NCBI GenBank assembly: GCA_022113835.1
Contig: JAILWY010000015.1
Coordinates: 7,788,501-7,852,500, forward strand
Reading direction: 5' to 3'
DNA: 64,000 nucleotides
Source of the DNA: Atopsyche davidsoni
Lineage: Eukaryota; Arthropoda; Insecta; Trichoptera; Hydrobiosidae
Shown one piece after another: positions 22,341 through 28,898 of this stretch. Positions within the stretch are counted from its first letter, which is position 1; every line of letters starts with the position of its first letter. The notes under the pieces were generated by a model. It made no database searches. It was not told the DNA's origin and saw only the letters and a program-made list of their open reading frames with translations. A program made the translations under genes and the position numbers.

Positions 22341-22678
22341 TGTAACGAGCCGGGTCTATAATTAAAAGATGATTTATTTGCACTATTTATATTTAACTTA
22401 TATGGTACAAAGTCTTCACAATTATTTATATTAACAACGTATTTATATCAACAACACTCCAGGACTGTCTCTTGCTCACTGCCGCCGGTCGCCTTGTTAC
22501 TCTCTCTGCAAGACCGCGTATTGTCGCCTCAGACGACGGTCGATCGATCATTCTAGAATCGCTCGGCAATGGATCGATAAGTTTTAGAACACAGAGTTGG
22601 AGCTCGGCAGAAGCGTCACGACCGATTCCATTTGTATGCCCTGTTCCGCGATCTTTGCCGCCGCGCTATCACGTAACA
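22341..22678 (-). repeat. 3' LTR of the gypsy element
   Basis: 338 bp, identical to 28561-28898. The first 95 nt in element sense (22678-22584) encode the C-terminus and stop codon of Pol. AATAAA at 22373-22378 is the likely polyadenylation signal. Confidence 0.97.
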
Positions 22679-25600
22679 TTACCCCCTCCTCAGGGATTGT
22701 TCCGTCCCGGAACACTCGTTGTCTTGTTCCGTGTAGGTAGCAGCAGTCTGGTCCACGTTTACATCCAATGGTTGCGTCAAAATAGCATTGAACCGTCTTT
22801 CGCTCCATTCCGCTGACCCAGGGATGATAACAGCATACTAAAATCTCAATTCCCGTATGCTGGAATAGTTCCTCGAGCATGCTTCGCACTATACGCCAGT
22901 CCAGGTAGCTCAACTTGGGCAGGCTGAACTTTGGGATCCCCTGCTCCAATAGCATTCTTCGCAGGCTTACCAGGCTATCCCATAACACTTGATAATCAGC
23001 CTCCTGGTGGGCTGTTCCTCTCGTAATTAGGAAGAACAACTCCCGGCCTTCGCGTTGTACTTGCAGAGTGTCCCCCAAATACGACTCTTGAGCTTCTCTC
23101 TTTATGTCTCCGTACCTTTGTTTTGTGACTCTCAAGATTCCTTTAGACATGTCCGAGTCTTTACTTATCACTTGAACCAGAGCATAATCTTTCGGTGTCA
23201 AAAATAAGTCTTGTCTCACTTCGGTGGTTACACCATACCTGGCCTTCCTTCCGGCACCATGTCGGATCATGAATTCGCCAAATGTTAATTCTTCTGCCGG
23301 CACTCGACATACTCGTACTGCCCGATCAGTTGTCTCATTGTTACTGCCCAAAAAAGGGCTCAGGCGGTTAAAATGAACAACTCTAGGTTTTCCATTCGGT
23401 CTCTTCCGGATGCGATATATTACATCGTTTATCCTCTTCATTACTTCGTACGGACCGTCCCACGCCCGTTGGAGTTTCGGAGAGAACCCCCTCCTTCTCT
23501 GGGGATTAAATAGCCAAACCAGGTCCCCGGCTTGGTGTCCACCTCCTTCAGCTCCCAAGTCGTATCGGTCCTTCATCCGATCACTGGCATCTTGGATGTT
23601 GACCCGTACTCTGTCATGAGTTTCGTTTAGCTGACGGCGTAAGTCTGAGACGTAGCCTTCTCCCACCAGGCTTTCTCCAGGTTTTCCTCCGAATTTCAAA
23701 TCGCACGGGAGGCGTAGTTCTCGCCCAAAAATTACACTAGCTGGTGTTTGTCTGGTCGCCTCGTGGATGGAAGAACGATACGCCAATAAGAACAGGTGCA
23801 GGTGTCGGTCCCAGTCTCTTTGATGATCAGCGACAACTTTTGATAAATATTTACCCATAGTCCGGTTCATCCTTTCGACCATTCCGTCAGATTGCGGATG
23901 TAGTGCTGTTGTCCTTGTCTTTCGAATGCCCAGAGTTTCGCACACTCCCTGAAAGACAGACGATTCAAAGTTTCTCCCTTGGTCAGAATGCAGCTCCATA
24001 GGAACGCCAAATCGGCAGATCCATTCTTTCACAATAACGTTAGCGACAGTAACGGCTTCTTGGTTCGGGATGGCGTATGCCTCCACCCATTTACTGAAGT
24101 AGTCCATCGTCACCAAGATGTATTTGTTTCCAGCTTCTGATGTAGGAAACGGGCCCGCTACATCGATCGCTATTCTCTCAAATGGGCTCCCAACGTTGTA
24201 TTGACGCATAGGTGCTCTTCGTTTGCGTTGTGGTCCATTGGCCGTTGCACAACACACGCACCTTCGACACCAATCGCGGACGTCTTCCTTGCAATTGACC
24301 CAGTAGAACCGTTCGCGTATCTTTTCTAGGGTTTTTCTGGTTCCAAGATGGCCTCCGGATGCTCCGTCGTGGACTAGTTTCAACACTTCGGCGACCCTCT
24401 TCCTTGGAACGACCAGCTGCAGCCTCTTTTGTGTCCCATCATTATTTTCCAGGATGCGCTTCAACAATTTACCTTCTAATGTCAAGGAGTTCCACTGTGC
24501 CCAATATGCTTTCACGCTTGGAGATAAAGAAGCGATTTCTTCCCAGATTGGCCGATGTCCAGCTCTCTTCCATTTGAGCACGTATTTTAACTCCGGATCA
24601 TTTTCTTGGTCTGTTAGCACATCAGTTTCGGACCACTCGTCATCACGTACAGTCACTCTTTCGACTGTAGCTGATTTTTCTTCTGCCCGACAGCAATGAG
24701 TACAGTTTTCATCGCAGGGCCTTCTTGATAGAGCATCGGCATTACGATGACTGGTTCCAGCTCGATGTTCAGTGTCAAAATCGAACTCTTGAAGTCTTTC
24801 GATCCATCTTGCTACTTGATTCTCGGGGTTTTTGAATCGTAGCAACCACAACAGTGCAGAGTGATCAGTTCGGAGAAGGAATTTCCTCCCGTAGAGATAT
24901 TTGTGAAAATGTTCCACGGACTTCACGACTGCGAGCAGTTCTCTTCGCGTTACACAATAATTGCGCTCTGGTTTTGATAAAACTTTGCTAAAGTACGCAA
25001 TCACTTTTTCATGGCCGTCTTGCATTTGCGATAAGACCCCTCCAATACCCACGTTGCTCGCATCAGTATCCAAGATAAATTTCTCGTCCGGTTTCGGATA
25101 GCTCAAGATGGGGGCGCTGATTAGTCTTTTTCTTAGCTCGTCAAATGCTGTTTGGCAGTCTTGGCTCCACCCAAATTCATTGCGTTCCTCGGTTAGTCTG
25201 ATTAGAGGTTTAGCGATGTCTGCAAACCCAGGAACAAATCGTCGATAGTACGTGCATAATCCTAGAAAACTTCTTATCTCGTTCTTGTCTTTAGGCTCCG
25301 GCCATTCTTTGACGGTTATTATTTTCTCGGGATCGACAGTAACTCCTTGAGCAGATATCATATGGCCGAGATATTTCACTGTCCTCCGAAATAAGTTGCA
25401 CTTAGATGGATTAAGTTTCAGACTAGCTTCTTGAAGTCGTCGAAACACTTGTTCTAAGTTTTTCAAATGATCGTCAAAAGTTCTTCCAACCACTATAATA
25501 TCGTCAAGATAAACGAGACAAGTTTCCCAGGATAATCCTCGAAGTACATTCTCCATTAGGCGCTCAAATGTAGCCGGCGCGTTGCATAGACCAAAGGGCA

Positions 25601-26999
25601 TTACGGTGAACTGCCAAAGGCCATTTCCAGTCGAGAAAGCCGTCTTTTCTTTATCTTTAGGATCAAGTTCGACCTGCCAGTAGCCACTCTTAAGGTCTAG
25701 GGTTGAGAACATTTTGCATCCAACTAAGGAGTCTAGAGTGTCGTCTATTCGCGGCAGAGGGTAGCTGTCTTTCTTCGTTACGTTGTTAAGCTGCCGATAA
25801 TCCACGCAAAAACGGGTTGTTCCGTCTTTCTTCTTCACCAGTACGACAGGTGAATTCCACGGACTATTTGAGCGCTCAATAATTTTTCCTTGGTCCATTT
25901 CTTGAATAATTCGCTCAGCCTCTTCCCTTCTTGCCAGTGGTAACCTTCTCGGTGCTTGTCGAATCGGTTGTGCTTCACCCGTATCTATTCGATGTCGCAC
26001 AATGTTAGTCCGGCCGCGTAATTCCTTCGAGCCTTCGAAAACATCTCGATACCGACGGATTAACTCTCCAATATTTTCTTTCTGTTTTGCTGTCAGTTCT
26101 TGACAGGAATCGTCCAATAGTCGCTGGAGATGTTCGGGCAGTTTCGTATTTACACCCGATGGGGTGTCTTTCAACTGTCGGACTATTGTGGATACGGCAG
26201 AATAATTTGCGAGTGGGCTGCCTTTCTTCAGATCCACAGGAAAGTCATTGATGTTTATCAAACGTACGGGTATCTCCTGTGTCGTACGTATCAGCGATTT
26301 AGCGACCAGGACTCCAGGAGCTTGCATAGTATTTCCAGGCTCGAGCATTAGTATCAGTCCTTCCGGAAGCTTGGCATTTAAGTAAGCTTGCACAATCATT
26401 TCGCTACGTTTTGGCACCACCGTGTTCATTGCGAGTATAACTTGTCCAGTTCCGTTCTCATTCGCCTCAAGGACAAGTTCTTCGCCATCAATTTTGACGA
26501 CTCCTTCTTTCAAGTCAAGCTTAAATCCCAACTTTGTCATAAGATCCATGCCAAGAATGACTTCTTCTTCTATTTCAGCCACTAACGCTATATGTTCGGC
26601 AGTGACTGCGCCAAATTGAAAAGTGGCGACCATCTCCCCGTGAACGCGAGCCGCTTCGCCTGTCGCAGTACGAAGTTTCCATCTGGAGGGAAACAAACGC
26701 TCTTTAGACATGACAATATCTGGCCGTAGGATTGTCATTGTTGCTCCGGTGTCCAATAGCAGTTTCCGGTTTCTTCCGTTGACCAATCCATTTACGAATA
26801 TGCTATCCGTGCGTCCCTTTAGTGTTGCGACTCTTGCAGAACGGCGCGGGAGGCTAGTAGTGCGGGTCGAAGGTTGCCCCTTCCCATCAACCCATTCTAG
26901 TTTTCCGAAAATTCTTGATGCCTTCCTCCATTTTGAGGTTTTCTGTGACAGCGAATTCGCAAATGACCAATCTGGCCACAATTCCAACACCGAGGTCTT
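22584..26999 (-). CDS. pol: Pol polyprotein: protease, RT, RNase H, integrase, macro-like domain, CCCH finger
   Basis: Replication and integration enzyme, about 1470 aa, probably made as Gag-Pol. Numbering starts at GTG 26990. Protease has LLDTGAT (D80). RT has FCVDYRQLN, MPFGLCNAP and YLDD (494-497). RNase H has D643, E684 and D709. Integrase has an HHCC finger (H874, H881, C908, C911), the catalytic triad D943, D1003 and E1039 with 35 residues between the last two, and a GPY motif (WDGPYEV, 1177-1183). Residues about 1254-1387 then fit a macro domain like TARG1/OARD1: QDLFLTPKDYALVQVIS, a KGI turn, LFFLITR and a final LDW..V..MLEELF..T.IEILV. The glycine-rich catalytic loop is shortened and the TARG1 lysine position reads R, so ADP-ribose hydrolysis is doubtful. 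A CX7CX5CX3H finger follows (C1402, C1410, C1416, H1420). No stops or frameshifts interrupt it. Confidence 0.95.
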   Translation of the reverse strand, partial: KTSVLELWPDWSFANSLSQKTSKWRKASRIFGKLEWVDGKGQPSTRTTSLPRRSARVATLKGRTDSIFVNGLVNGRNRKLLLDTGATMTILRPDIVMSKERLFPSRWKLRTATGEAARVHGEMVATFQFGAVTAEHIALVAEIEEEVILGMDLMTKLGFKLDLKEGVVKIDGEELVLEANENGTGQVILAMNTVVPKRSEMIVQAYLNAKLPEGLILMLEPGNTMQAPGVLVAKSLIRTTQEIPVRLININDFPVDLKKGSPLANYSAVSTIVRQLKDTPSGVNTKLPEHLQRLLDDSCQELTAKQKENIGELIRRYRDVFEGSKELRGRTNIVRHRIDTGEAQPIRQAPRRLPLARREEAERIIQEMDQGKIIERSNSPWNSPVVLVKKKDGTTRFCVDYRQLNNVTKKDSYPLPRIDDTLDSLVGCKMFSTLDLKSGYWQVELDPKDKEKTAFSTGNGLWQFTVMPFGLCNAPATFERLMENVLRGLSWETCLVYLDDIIVVGRTFDDHLKNLEQVFRRLQEASLKLNPSKCNLFRRTVKYLGHMISAQGVTVDPEKIITVKEWPEPKDKNEIRSFLGLCTYYRRFVPGFADIAKPLIRLTEERNEFGWSQDCQTAFDELRKRLISAPILSYPKPDEKFILDTDASNVGIGGVLSQMQDGHEKVIAYFSKVLSKPERNYCVTRRELLAVVKSVEHFHKYLYGRKFLLRTDHSALLWLLRFKNPENQVARWIERLQEFDFDTEHRAGTSHRNADALSRRPCDENCTHCCRAEEKSATVERVTVRDDEWSETDVLTDQENDPELKYVLKWKRAGHRPIWEEIASLSPSVKAYWAQWNSLTLEGKLLKRILENNDGTQKRLQLVVPRKRVAEVLKLVHDGASGGHLGTRKTLEKIRERFYWVNCKEDVRDWCRRCVCCATANGPQRKRRAPMRQYNVGSPFERIAIDVAGPFPTSEAGNKYILVTMDYFSKWVEAYAIPNQEAVTVANVIVKEWICRFGVPMELHSDQGRNFESSVFQGVCETLGIRKTRTTALHPQSDGMVERMNRTMGKYLSKVVADHQRDWDRHLHLFLLAYRSSIHEATRQTPASVIFGRELRLPCDLKFGGKPGESLVGEGYVSDLRRQLNETHDRVRVNIQDASDRMKDRYDLGAEGGGHQAGDLVWLFNPQRRRGFSPKLQRAWDGPYEVMKRINDVIYRIRKRPNGKPRVVHFNRLSPFLGSNNETTDRAVRVCRVPAEELTFGEFMIRHGAGRKARYGVTTEVRQDLFLTPKDYALVQVISKDSDMSKGILRVTKQRYGDIKREAQESYLGDTLQVQREGRELFFLITRGTAHQEADYQVLWDSLVSLRRMLLEQGIPKFSLPKLSYLDWRIVRSMLEELFQHTGIEILVCCYHPWVSGMERKTVQCYFDATIGCKRGPDCCYLHGTRQRVFRDGTIPEEGVMLRDSAAAKIAEQGIQMESVVTLLPSSNSVF
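22679..22696 (-). promoter_or_regulatory. polypurine tract
   Basis: In element sense GAGGAGGGGGTAA directly precedes the 3' LTR. It is the usual primer site for plus-strand DNA synthesis. Here it is also translated, as part of Pol (PEEGV). Confidence 0.85.
26897..26999 (-). other. gag-pol overlap, probable -1 frameshift zone
   Basis: The pol frame is open from 26999 (after TGA at 27002-27000) and gag stops at 26897. Pol lies in the -1 frame. No canonical XXXYYYZ heptamer is present. The best candidates are G GAA AAC at 26906-26900, directly before the gag stop, and AGA AAA in the zinc-knuckle region. No pol ATG exists at the start of the frame; the first codon often taken as start is GTG (26990). 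Confidence 0.7.
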
Positions 27000-28162
27000 T
27001 CAGACTTCTTAGATTTAAGCGCTTCCAATACGCGGTGAACTATTTCTTCTATCGAAAGGTTCGACGGGGCTTCTTCCACGCCCTCCATGGCCCGGACGCG
27101 AGGCTGGCTTCTTAGTGATTGCTTGACTGCCTCAAACTCAAGGGCTTGAGTCAAGGCGTCACTCAATATCTTCGGGCGGGCTAATTTTACGGCCTGTTGT
27201 GTCTCTACTTCTCTCAGACCGTCTAAAAATTTTTCTACCGCCAGGCTCTCATAGACGTCATCGGGAACAGTTGGGTAAGCGCTTCGCACCAATCGCACGA
27301 TGTCCGCCTCGAACTCTTGGAGTGATTCTGTTGGTTTCTGGTAGCGGTTCTTCAACTGGGACCGGTAAATCTGTTCCATATGCCGATGACCAAAGCGCAT
27401 ATCAAGTCGTTTGGTCAGCTCAGTGTAGTTGACCCTGTCCTCCAGCGGAATCGTTTGCAATACCCTGAGGGCATCGCCACGCAGTAATAGACTCAATATG
27501 GATGCTTTTCTTATAACTGACCATCCATTGATCATGGCCGCCGTCTCGAATAGCGCCAAATACTCCTCCCATACGGTTTTCCCATCAAAAGTCGGCAGAT
27601 CACTTCTGATGCTGCAATTTGTCGCTTCGTGCTTGTGGTCATGTTGGTGAGTATTTTCCAATGGTTTCATGTCAGTACTACTTTTTGTATCCATATTTCC
27701 AGAGTAACTCGCCGTTTCTTTCGCTTGCCCGACTAACCTCTTTTCCATGTCTTGAATGACGTCCTTAATCCTTCGGTCAACCGATTCGTTCAATTCTTCT
27801 ATCTTCGTGTCAAACTTGATGGTTTGTTTTTCAATCCTCGCGTCGATTGATTCCATTATCTGGTACTTCATTGAATCTAGATTTGTCAAATGATCCGCCC
27901 GCTCAGTCCTAATCTGTTCCCGTAACTCATTTGATTGTTTCTCCATCTTGTTCTCGATTCCGACCATCGTTTTGAATAAATCAGTAATGCTGTACGGCAC
28001 TTCAAAGAGGAACTCTTCTGGGTTGTGGCCCTCTTGCGCCAGGAATTCCTTCAATCTTAGCACAAGGGCTGGCTTCGACCCTGAGGTTAACAGATCCCGA
28101 TCTTCAAGTTCTCTCTTCAGATCTACTATTTTGAGGTCACTCACATTTACGTGCTTAGCCAT
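26897..28162 (-). CDS. gag: Gag polyprotein with N-terminal SAP domain
   Basis: 421 aa structural protein that would package element RNA. Residues about 8-42 fit a SAP domain (LKIVDLKRELEDRDL, then a second helix LVLRLKEFL), a DNA/RNA-binding helix pair unusual at this place in Gag. Residues about 65-155 are rich in E, K, R and regularly spaced hydrophobics, suggesting a coiled coil. Residues about 190-355 resemble the retrotransposon capsid family (LPTFDGKTVWEEYLALFE, YRSQLKNRYQKPTESLQEF). Residues 392-405 are a CX2CX4HX4C zinc knuckle (CWNCGQIGHLRIRC). The stop overlaps the pol frame, which stays open from 26999, by 103 nt, so Pol is probably made by -1 frameshifting. The ATG at 28162 follows the duplicated leader. 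Confidence 0.93.
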   Translation of the reverse strand: MAKHVNVSDLKIVDLKRELEDRDLLTSGSKPALVLRLKEFLAQEGHNPEEFLFEVPYSITDLFKTMVGIENKMEKQSNELREQIRTERADHLTNLDSMKYQIMESIDARIEKQTIKFDTKIEELNESVDRRIKDVIQDMEKRLVGQAKETASYSGNMDTKSSTDMKPLENTHQHDHKHEATNCSIRSDLPTFDGKTVWEEYLALFETAAMINGWSVIRKASILSLLLRGDALRVLQTIPLEDRVNYTELTKRLDMRFGHRHMEQIYRSQLKNRYQKPTESLQEFEADIVRLVRSAYPTVPDDVYESLAVEKFLDGLREVETQQAVKLARPKILSDALTQALEFEAVKQSLRSQPRVRAMEGVEEAPSNLSIEEIVHRVLEALKSKKSERPRCWNCGQIGHLRIRCHRKPQNGGRHQEFSEN

Positions 28163-28538
28163 TTTTATAAATTTATTTATTTATTAATTTAAGAATTATT
28201 TAATACCAAATATTTATATATATTAAAAAAAATATATTATTATAATAACTAATATTAAAAACTAGATATTAAACACTATAACATAGATTTATTTATTATA
28301 ATTAGGTCTATTAAAGAGTAAAATTTAAATTATTATTTATTTATTTTAGCCATTTTTATACATTTATTTATTTATTAATTTAAGAATTATTTATTACCAA
28401 ATATTTATATATATAAAAAAATATATATTATTATAATAACTAATATTAAAAACTAGATATTAAACACTATAACATAGATTTATTTATTATAATTAGGTCT
28501 ATTAAAGAGTTAAATTTAAATTATTATTTATTTATTTT
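28157..28538 (-). repeat. 191-bp tandem duplication in the element leader
   Basis: Two AT-rich copies, 28157-28347 and 28348-28538, differ at only a few positions. They fill nearly the whole leader between primer-binding site and gag. The copied unit includes the first bases of gag, so an extra start codon lies in the upstream copy. Confidence 0.93.
28336..28353 (-). other. upstream mini-ORF in the leader (duplicated gag start)
   Basis: Reads MAKINK and a TAA stop codon that would end at 28333. The ATG (28353-28351) is the duplicate of the gag start (28162-28160), whose product begins MAKHVN. A ribosome scanning the full-length RNA would meet this ORF first. An effect on Gag output is inference. 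Confidence 0.75.
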
Positions 28539-28560: not shown

Positions 28561-28898
28561 TGTAACGAGCCGGGTCTATAATTAAAAGATGATTTATTTG
28601 CACTATTTATATTTAACTTATATGGTACAAAGTCTTCACAATTATTTATATTAACAACGTATTTATATCAACAACACTCCAGGACTGTCTCTTGCTCACT
28701 GCCGCCGGTCGCCTTGTTACTCTCTCTGCAAGACCGCGTATTGTCGCCTCAGACGACGGTCGATCGATCATTCTAGAATCGCTCGGCAATGGATCGATAA
28801 GTTTTAGAACACAGAGTTGGAGCTCGGCAGAAGCGTCACGACCGATTCCATTTGTATGCCCTGTTCCGCGATCTTTGCCGCCGCGCTATCACGTAACA
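28561..28898 (-). repeat. 5' LTR of the gypsy element
   Basis: 338 bp, TG..CA ends (element sense TGTTACGTGATAG..CTCGTTACA). Identical to the 3' LTR. A polyadenylation signal AATAAA lies at 28593-28598 in element sense, about 33 nt before the LTR end, so the region after R is very short. Confidence 0.97.

Follow-up and report, generated by a model that had tools for sequence, protein, structure and literature searches.

The window analysed here, a stretch of 64,000 nt from Atopsyche davidsoni (assembly GCA_022113835.1, contig JAILWY010000015.1, positions 7,788,501-7,852,500 of the forward strand), carries on its minus strand a long terminal repeat (LTR) retrotransposon whose Pol polyprotein continues behind the integrase into a stretch that homology and structure prediction identify as a TARG1/OARD1-type (ALC1-like) macrodomain. 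Positions given without a contig refer to the window, all features of the element lie on the minus strand, and the genome searched comprises 370.7 Mb in 80 contigs.

The LTRs of 338 bp each (TGT..ACA; 5′ LTR, 28561..28898; 3′ LTR, 22341..22678) are identical and flanked on their outer sides by a 4-bp target duplication, ATAC on the plus strand. Thus, the insertion is young. The gag open reading frame (ORF; 421 aa, 26897..28162) has at its N-terminus a SAP domain, which belongs to a DNA-binding class (Pfam 35.5 bits, cut-off 23.9), and further contains a PNMA-like stretch and a CCHC knuckle, both scoring under the Pfam cut-off. Pol (1468 codons from a mechanically assigned GTG start, 22584..26990) is read in the -1 frame relative to gag with an overlap of 94 bp. 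It comprises protease, reverse transcriptase (RT), RNase H, integrase and the macrodomain tail, and Pfam recognizes protease, RT, RNase H, H2C2, rve and p58_C. LTRs, gag and this order of enzymes place the element among the Ty3/gypsy retrotransposons. Since the last approx. 31 codons of Pol (22584..22678) lie within the 3′ LTR, there is no room for an env gene, and the absence of an env ORF behind pol sets the element apart from errantivirus-like ones. A tandem duplication of 191 bp (28155-28345 and 28346-28536, 97% identical) is located between the 5′ LTR and gag.

The C-terminal piece of Pol (P0001, 22584-23741) contains the end of the integrase with its p58/SH3 (GPY) domain (23355..23456, residues 96-129 of P0001; PF22938, 50.8 bits), the macrodomain (22836..23228, residues 172-302, equivalent to Pol 1255-1385) and a CX7CX5CX3H motif formed by C319, C327, C333 and H337 (22731..22787). 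With E-values up to 1, Pfam matches in the tail were confined to p58_C, SH3_Tf2-1 and zf-CCCH, so that the element does not qualify as a chromovirus.

Identity and conservation of the Pol tail

An original prediction, made from the sequence alone, had assigned the residues behind the integrase to the TARG1 pattern, and the motifs it listed are indeed present. An alignment of the macrodomain piece with four phage proteins yielded 1844 TARG1-like proteins, the best 120 of which were used for comparison. Against these, the piece reached up to 77.1 bits and exceeded 25 bits with 119 of the 120 targets, compared with 8.2 bits for the best of 200 shuffled sequences and 0.8 bits for an equally long integrase piece. 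Searches of protein databases with a Pol piece or the macrodomain piece alone gave no match at an E-value of 0.001. The profile and structure comparison that had been proposed as a check returned the TARG1 fold, albeit without a Pfam Macro match: the tail matches TARG1/OARD1 structures (PDB 4j5r and 4j5s) with 31-33% identity over 134-138 aligned residues, and TARG1 is the nearest macrodomain fold. Stand-alone TARG1-like proteins are also encoded by Lactobacillus phages LpeD and LP65, Fusobacterium phages Fnu1, FNU2 and FNU3 and Bacillus phage G; in the 10 records seen for such phage proteins, several are named hypothetical or merely numbered.

Compared as DNA, the stretch has matches at no fewer than 41 genomic places, a large share of which are incomplete. 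A protein search with the tail revealed 23 copies in which it is nearly complete, namely the window copy and 22 copies of a second subfamily, B, that are 86-87% identical. In 21 of the 23, the Pol frame spans at least 1426 aa, and all 21 carry the macrodomain, although a tail search is blind to tailless copies. A search with the integrase found four family copies with long frames lacking the macrodomain, one on contig C20 (1268 aa) and three on C78, C79 and C80 (1111 aa). Because part of the C-terminal region of the integrase is lost as well, and the frames on C78-C80 stop inside the integrase, we regard them as broken copies and not as working macrodomain-less ones. The latter three (L095 on C80, L094 on C78, L093 on C79; contigs of 16-23 kb) share an identical integrase breakpoint and may represent one duplicated locus. 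A further 43 of the 80 rows of the tail search align with the query over no more than its final 23-26 residues. In the seven inspected (L028-L034), 555 bp of integrase are fused to the tail end and the macrodomain is deleted; no match to RT, RNase H or gag was found within 3.2 kb of each. Judged from their sequences, such high-copy, macrodomain-deleted derivatives are probably non-autonomous.

Between the window copy and one copy of subfamily B (L002), the only pair compared (Nei-Gojobori, 500 codon bootstraps), dN/dS was 0.05 for the integrase part and 0.25 for the macrodomain part (95% interval 0.11-0.56, Fisher p 5e-4). Thus, the macrodomain is under purifying selection between the two subfamilies, which is the second outcome the original prediction had named in its favour. 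The last codons of Pol gave a value of 0.83, not distinguishable from 1. The predicted CCCH finger fared differently. The motif itself is good, and all four of its residues are conserved in the translated copies of subfamily B, but neither the sequences nor the structural model support it as a functional unit. PF00642 scored 18.1 bits in the window and 14.6 and 13.5 bits in two further copies (cut-off 20.5), and AlphaFold confidence (pLDDT) stayed below 50 over this stretch. With a dN/dS of 0.56 for the motif alone (95% interval 0.13-2.26) and 0.47 for the stretch containing it (0.14-1.60), neutrality is not rejected.

A dismantled ligand pocket

Excerpts of two reports (PMC5087735, PMC9411070) name K84 and D125 of TARG1 as the binding and catalytic residues. 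In the window module, K84 is replaced by R and D125 by S, so that the catalytic pair of the enzyme is absent, and the glycine-rich phosphate loop (IGxGLD) is deleted here and in subfamily B. The H, C, G, A, N and KP positions are replaced in both subfamilies, and KPT is among the motifs lost from the window pocket, while many core positions are retained. By the yardstick of 39 positions that are at least 85% conserved among the 120 TARG1-like proteins, the window module keeps 21 and subfamily B 19, compared with 31 in a TARG1 of the host (L078). The K-to-R exchange had been predicted correctly; the loop, in contrast, has been deleted where a shortening had been described, and D, H, C, N, K and P are lost in addition.

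Because the phosphate loop is missing on top of the K/D pair, hydrolysis by the window module is very unlikely, and ordinary binding of ADP-ribose is doubtful. From these residues we infer a loss of ligand binding. Of the roles that had been proposed, binding without catalysis or a new one, the lack of hydrolysis is thus upheld at the level of sequence, whereas the loss of the ligand loops weakens binding and makes a role independent of the pocket likelier.

The host genome contains three TARG1-like loci: L078 (C18:6139400), which spans two exons, L079 (C24:5272500) and L080 (C18:6130950). The latter two deviate in the GSGLD or KPT motifs, and decay may have turned them into degenerate paralogues.

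Macrodomains in related elements and their origin

Protein searches uncovered further gypsy elements in the same genome that carry a TARG1-like domain in another place, after RNase H and ahead of the H2C2 part of the integrase. Loci of this type, termed ERV1 and ERV2, are L065 to L068, L074 and L075. L065 (C11:7575255-7575719), L066 (C3), L067 (C14) and L068 (C24) hold the macrodomain in this Pol slot, as do eight ERV2 copies (two on C6 and one each on C25, C1, C9, C10, C24 and C4). L065 has a frame of 1311 aa, and its macrodomain reached 27.6 bits with Pfam Macro (cut-off 22), 8e-18 against TARG1 in a single-sequence phmmer comparison and 1.4e-13 with Foldseek; the AlphaFold model has a pLDDT of 87.4, its alignment having included TARG1-like rows. 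Behind pol, L065, in which env was sought, encodes a Baculo_F-type envelope protein (PF12259, 62.2 bits, cut-off 24.1) and is therefore errantivirus-like.

The pocket of ERV1 is more intact. L065 and L066 retain H, K, D, KPT and GCGLD and keep 25 and 24 of the 39 conserved positions, while the Cys, the Asn and the Asp in DLF are missing. The ERV1 macrodomain has a dN/dS of 0.08 (0.04-0.16, Fisher p 4e-18) and the preceding linker one of 0.36 (0.13-1.22), rough values from a single pair with a dS of approx. 0.9 that is higher in the flanks. An active ADP-ribose eraser is a natural guess for this macrodomain. In five of the eight ERV2 copies the frame is 1312 aa long. The one used for comparison still has K and D, has lost H, KP and a loop glycine and retains 11 of the 39 positions. 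In 13 rows the match is confined to the first part of the ERV1 domain; two of these loci, L076 and L077, are without most of the integrase.

The ERV1 and ERV2 integrases are the nearest to that of the window family (163-181 bits; 133 for a partial copy on C24), compared with at most 140 bits for lineages without a macrodomain match. RT sequences rank differently. A macrodomain-less lineage, C14a, is 47-48% identical to the window (193-203 bits) and slightly ahead of ERV1 and ERV2 (47%, 187-191 bits), which speaks slightly against a single macrodomain-bearing clade. No macrodomain remnant was found in the spacers between RNase H and integrase of C14a and of the element at C25:3246500 (bits below 1), the C14a spacer scoring below 0 bits in three frames of a hidden Markov model search. 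Trees of the macrodomain (40 and 39 sequences, with long branches) gave p-AU values of 0.478 for a clade of window and ERV1, 0.168 for ERV1 with the host and 0.34 for all together, while window and host TARG1 grouped with a support of only 37/65. In the integrase tree (15 rows), a single macrodomain-bearing clade had a p-AU of 0.102 at a log-likelihood lower by 8.3 and is neither shown nor rejected. Trees thus fit one capture with a later move and two independent captures alike.

As the source of the window domain we consider a cellular or viral TARG1-like gene. In a library of viral structures, TARG1-like folds occur in insect viruses, namely in VP8 of Kadipiro virus, in negev-like and virga-like viruses and in an entomopoxvirus. 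No named member of the Metaviridae was among the best 50 of 83 matches at an E-value of up to 0.001, many of which are nameless, and viral contigs scanned with both macrodomains gave no confirmed match. A tentative scenario would be that insect gypsy elements captured a TARG1-type hydrolase, that an enveloped lineage kept it functional as an eraser in the slot between RNase H and integrase, and that kindred lineages lost catalysis and moved or recaptured the domain to the integrase end as a tether.

Insertions of the macrodomain-less lineage (RT 47-48% identical to the window) show a distribution of their own. With ERV1 and ERV2 rows set aside, nine of 12 rows covering the whole RT piece are situated less than 40 kb from where a large contig ends (C1:10498, C2:12980488, C3:4931, C3:14075396, C5:16845, C8:17681, C15:5792, C24:8952952 and C26:21224), which suggests subtelomeric insertion.

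Possible roles and comparison with known systems

A fold that is maintained by selection while its ADP-ribose pocket is lost points most readily to a domain that serves the integrase as an interaction surface and not as an enzyme, a reading to which we assign a probability of about 0.45. Starting from the computed homology, predicted fold, reading frame, selection and loss of pocket residues, we infer that the TARG1-like domain behind the integrase of this recently inserted, env-less element would occupy the slot of the chromodomain in chromoviruses and, perhaps assisted by the adjoining CCCH motif, act as a tether by which Pol or the pre-integration complex is attached to nucleic acid or to a protein of the host.

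Several observations weigh against this proposal. The Asp of the DLF motif, which we take to be the adenine contact in macrodomains, is kept in the window module. According to an excerpt of PMC9411070, the TARG1 relative SCO6735 still hydrolyses without K and D, and thus loss of this pair alone is no proof of inactivity. Neither Pfam nor NCBIfam calls a Macro domain in the tail, and the AlphaFold2 model was guided by 82 TARG1-like alignment rows. We do not take the silence of Pfam as negative evidence because plain phage TARG1-like proteins also score low (14.4, 22.1 and 24.3 bits in the three tried; cut-off 22). In the pair compared, the macrodomain showed a fivefold weaker constraint than the integrase part, so that it may have a minor role or be partly decayed. 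Finally, the 3′ flanks located for 18 of the 22 subfamily B copies revealed no unusual targeting but only a short ATA-type target (ATA in 17 of 18; next base T in 12, C in four, G in one and A in one; A+T content 53 to 77%).

The main rival to an interaction surface, plausible enough to be weighed although we consider it unlikely, regards the tail as a passenger: a captured TARG1 fragment would be tolerated, with selection acting on its folding only, since misfolding would harm the integrase. The weaker constraint on the macrodomain, the values for the CCCH motif and the last codons that do not differ from 1, the loss of the pocket and the existence of the macrodomain-less relative C14a are in line with this view. 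A dispensable passenger is harder to reconcile with its presence in every copy with a frame of at least 1426 aa, allowing for tailless copies missed by the tail search, and with the broken integrase of the long-frame copies that lack it. Rather unlikely is an ADP-ribose reader, in which weak binding of ADP-ribose or poly-ADP-ribose would lead the integrase to chromatin or nicks marked by PARP. The macrodomain fold, purifying selection and the retained Asp of DLF would suit a reader, but the deleted loop and the replaced pocket residues of both subfamilies would not. According to excerpts of a Drosophila study (PMC7712786), mobile elements, with numerous members of the gypsy superfamily among them, mostly increase when PARP-1 is lost, an effect that its authors consider possibly indirect; this would likewise suit a reader and, for ERV1, an active eraser.

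An active eraser of host ADP-ribose marks, acting against a PARP-type defence in the manner of viral macrodomains, is improbable for the window element given its R, its S and its missing loop. TARG1-like folds in insect viruses and the ERV1 pocket under strong constraint favour such an activity, which fits ERV1 better, yet in ERV1, too, the Cys, the Asn and the DLF Asp are missing. The earlier suggestion that the tail counters PARP silencing thus finds no support in the window element and is more reasonable for its relatives with a more intact pocket. That the tail is no macrodomain at all, but a chance resemblance or another Rossmann-like fold, can practically be dismissed in view of the shuffle controls and the TARG1 structures matched, the missing Pfam Macro match being a weakness shared by plain TARG1-like proteins.

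Fish epsilon-like endogenous retroviruses reportedly carry macro-domain ORFs, a finding said to go back to Basta in 2009. The nearest report among the literature, mentioned in an excerpt of PMC4977317, concerns these ORFs; they share with the window a macrodomain in a retroelement but are additional ORFs in another virus family. Accessory domains in retroelements are known according to an excerpt of PMC6338049. A word search of PMC6338049, PMC6085415, PMC12992720 and PMC8672886 gave no relevant mention of a macro domain. The expectation that no gypsy element of this arrangement had been described holds among the matches listed from the open-licence PMC literature, Repbase not being covered, with the fish retroviral ORFs as the related case; nor did these matches include a gypsy element bearing a macrodomain anywhere.

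TARG1 (C6orf130) shares with the window module the whole fold and the order of strands and helices; it differs in that the window module is fused to an integrase, has R and S at K84 and D125 and lacks the phosphate loop. ERV1 and ERV2 resemble the window element in having a TARG1-like macrodomain in Pol, the next-nearest integrases and an RT identity of 47%. Unlike in the window element, their domain precedes the integrase and follows RNase H; K, D and the loop are preserved in ERV1, and L065 has a Baculo_F-type env. Some lentiviruses have a dUTPase between RNase H and integrase, the same Pol slot, although the enzyme and the family are different. Macrodomains of RNA viruses are counter-defences against host ADP-ribosylation. 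If the more intact ERV1-type version does remove ADP-ribose, insect defence against retroelements probably involves ADP-ribosylation. The genome offers one form that looks active and one that looks dead as a natural pair for comparison. If the series from capture to tether is true, it would also hold a graded passage from an anti-PARP enzyme to a targeting domain of the integrase. Chromoviruses, the Ty3/gypsy elements with a chromodomain behind the integrase, likewise bear an extra domain after GPY/SH3, but in the window element this domain is a macrodomain. With its fold kept and its pocket lost, it would represent a new kind of integrase tail beside chromodomains, with a bearing on the choice of integration sites.
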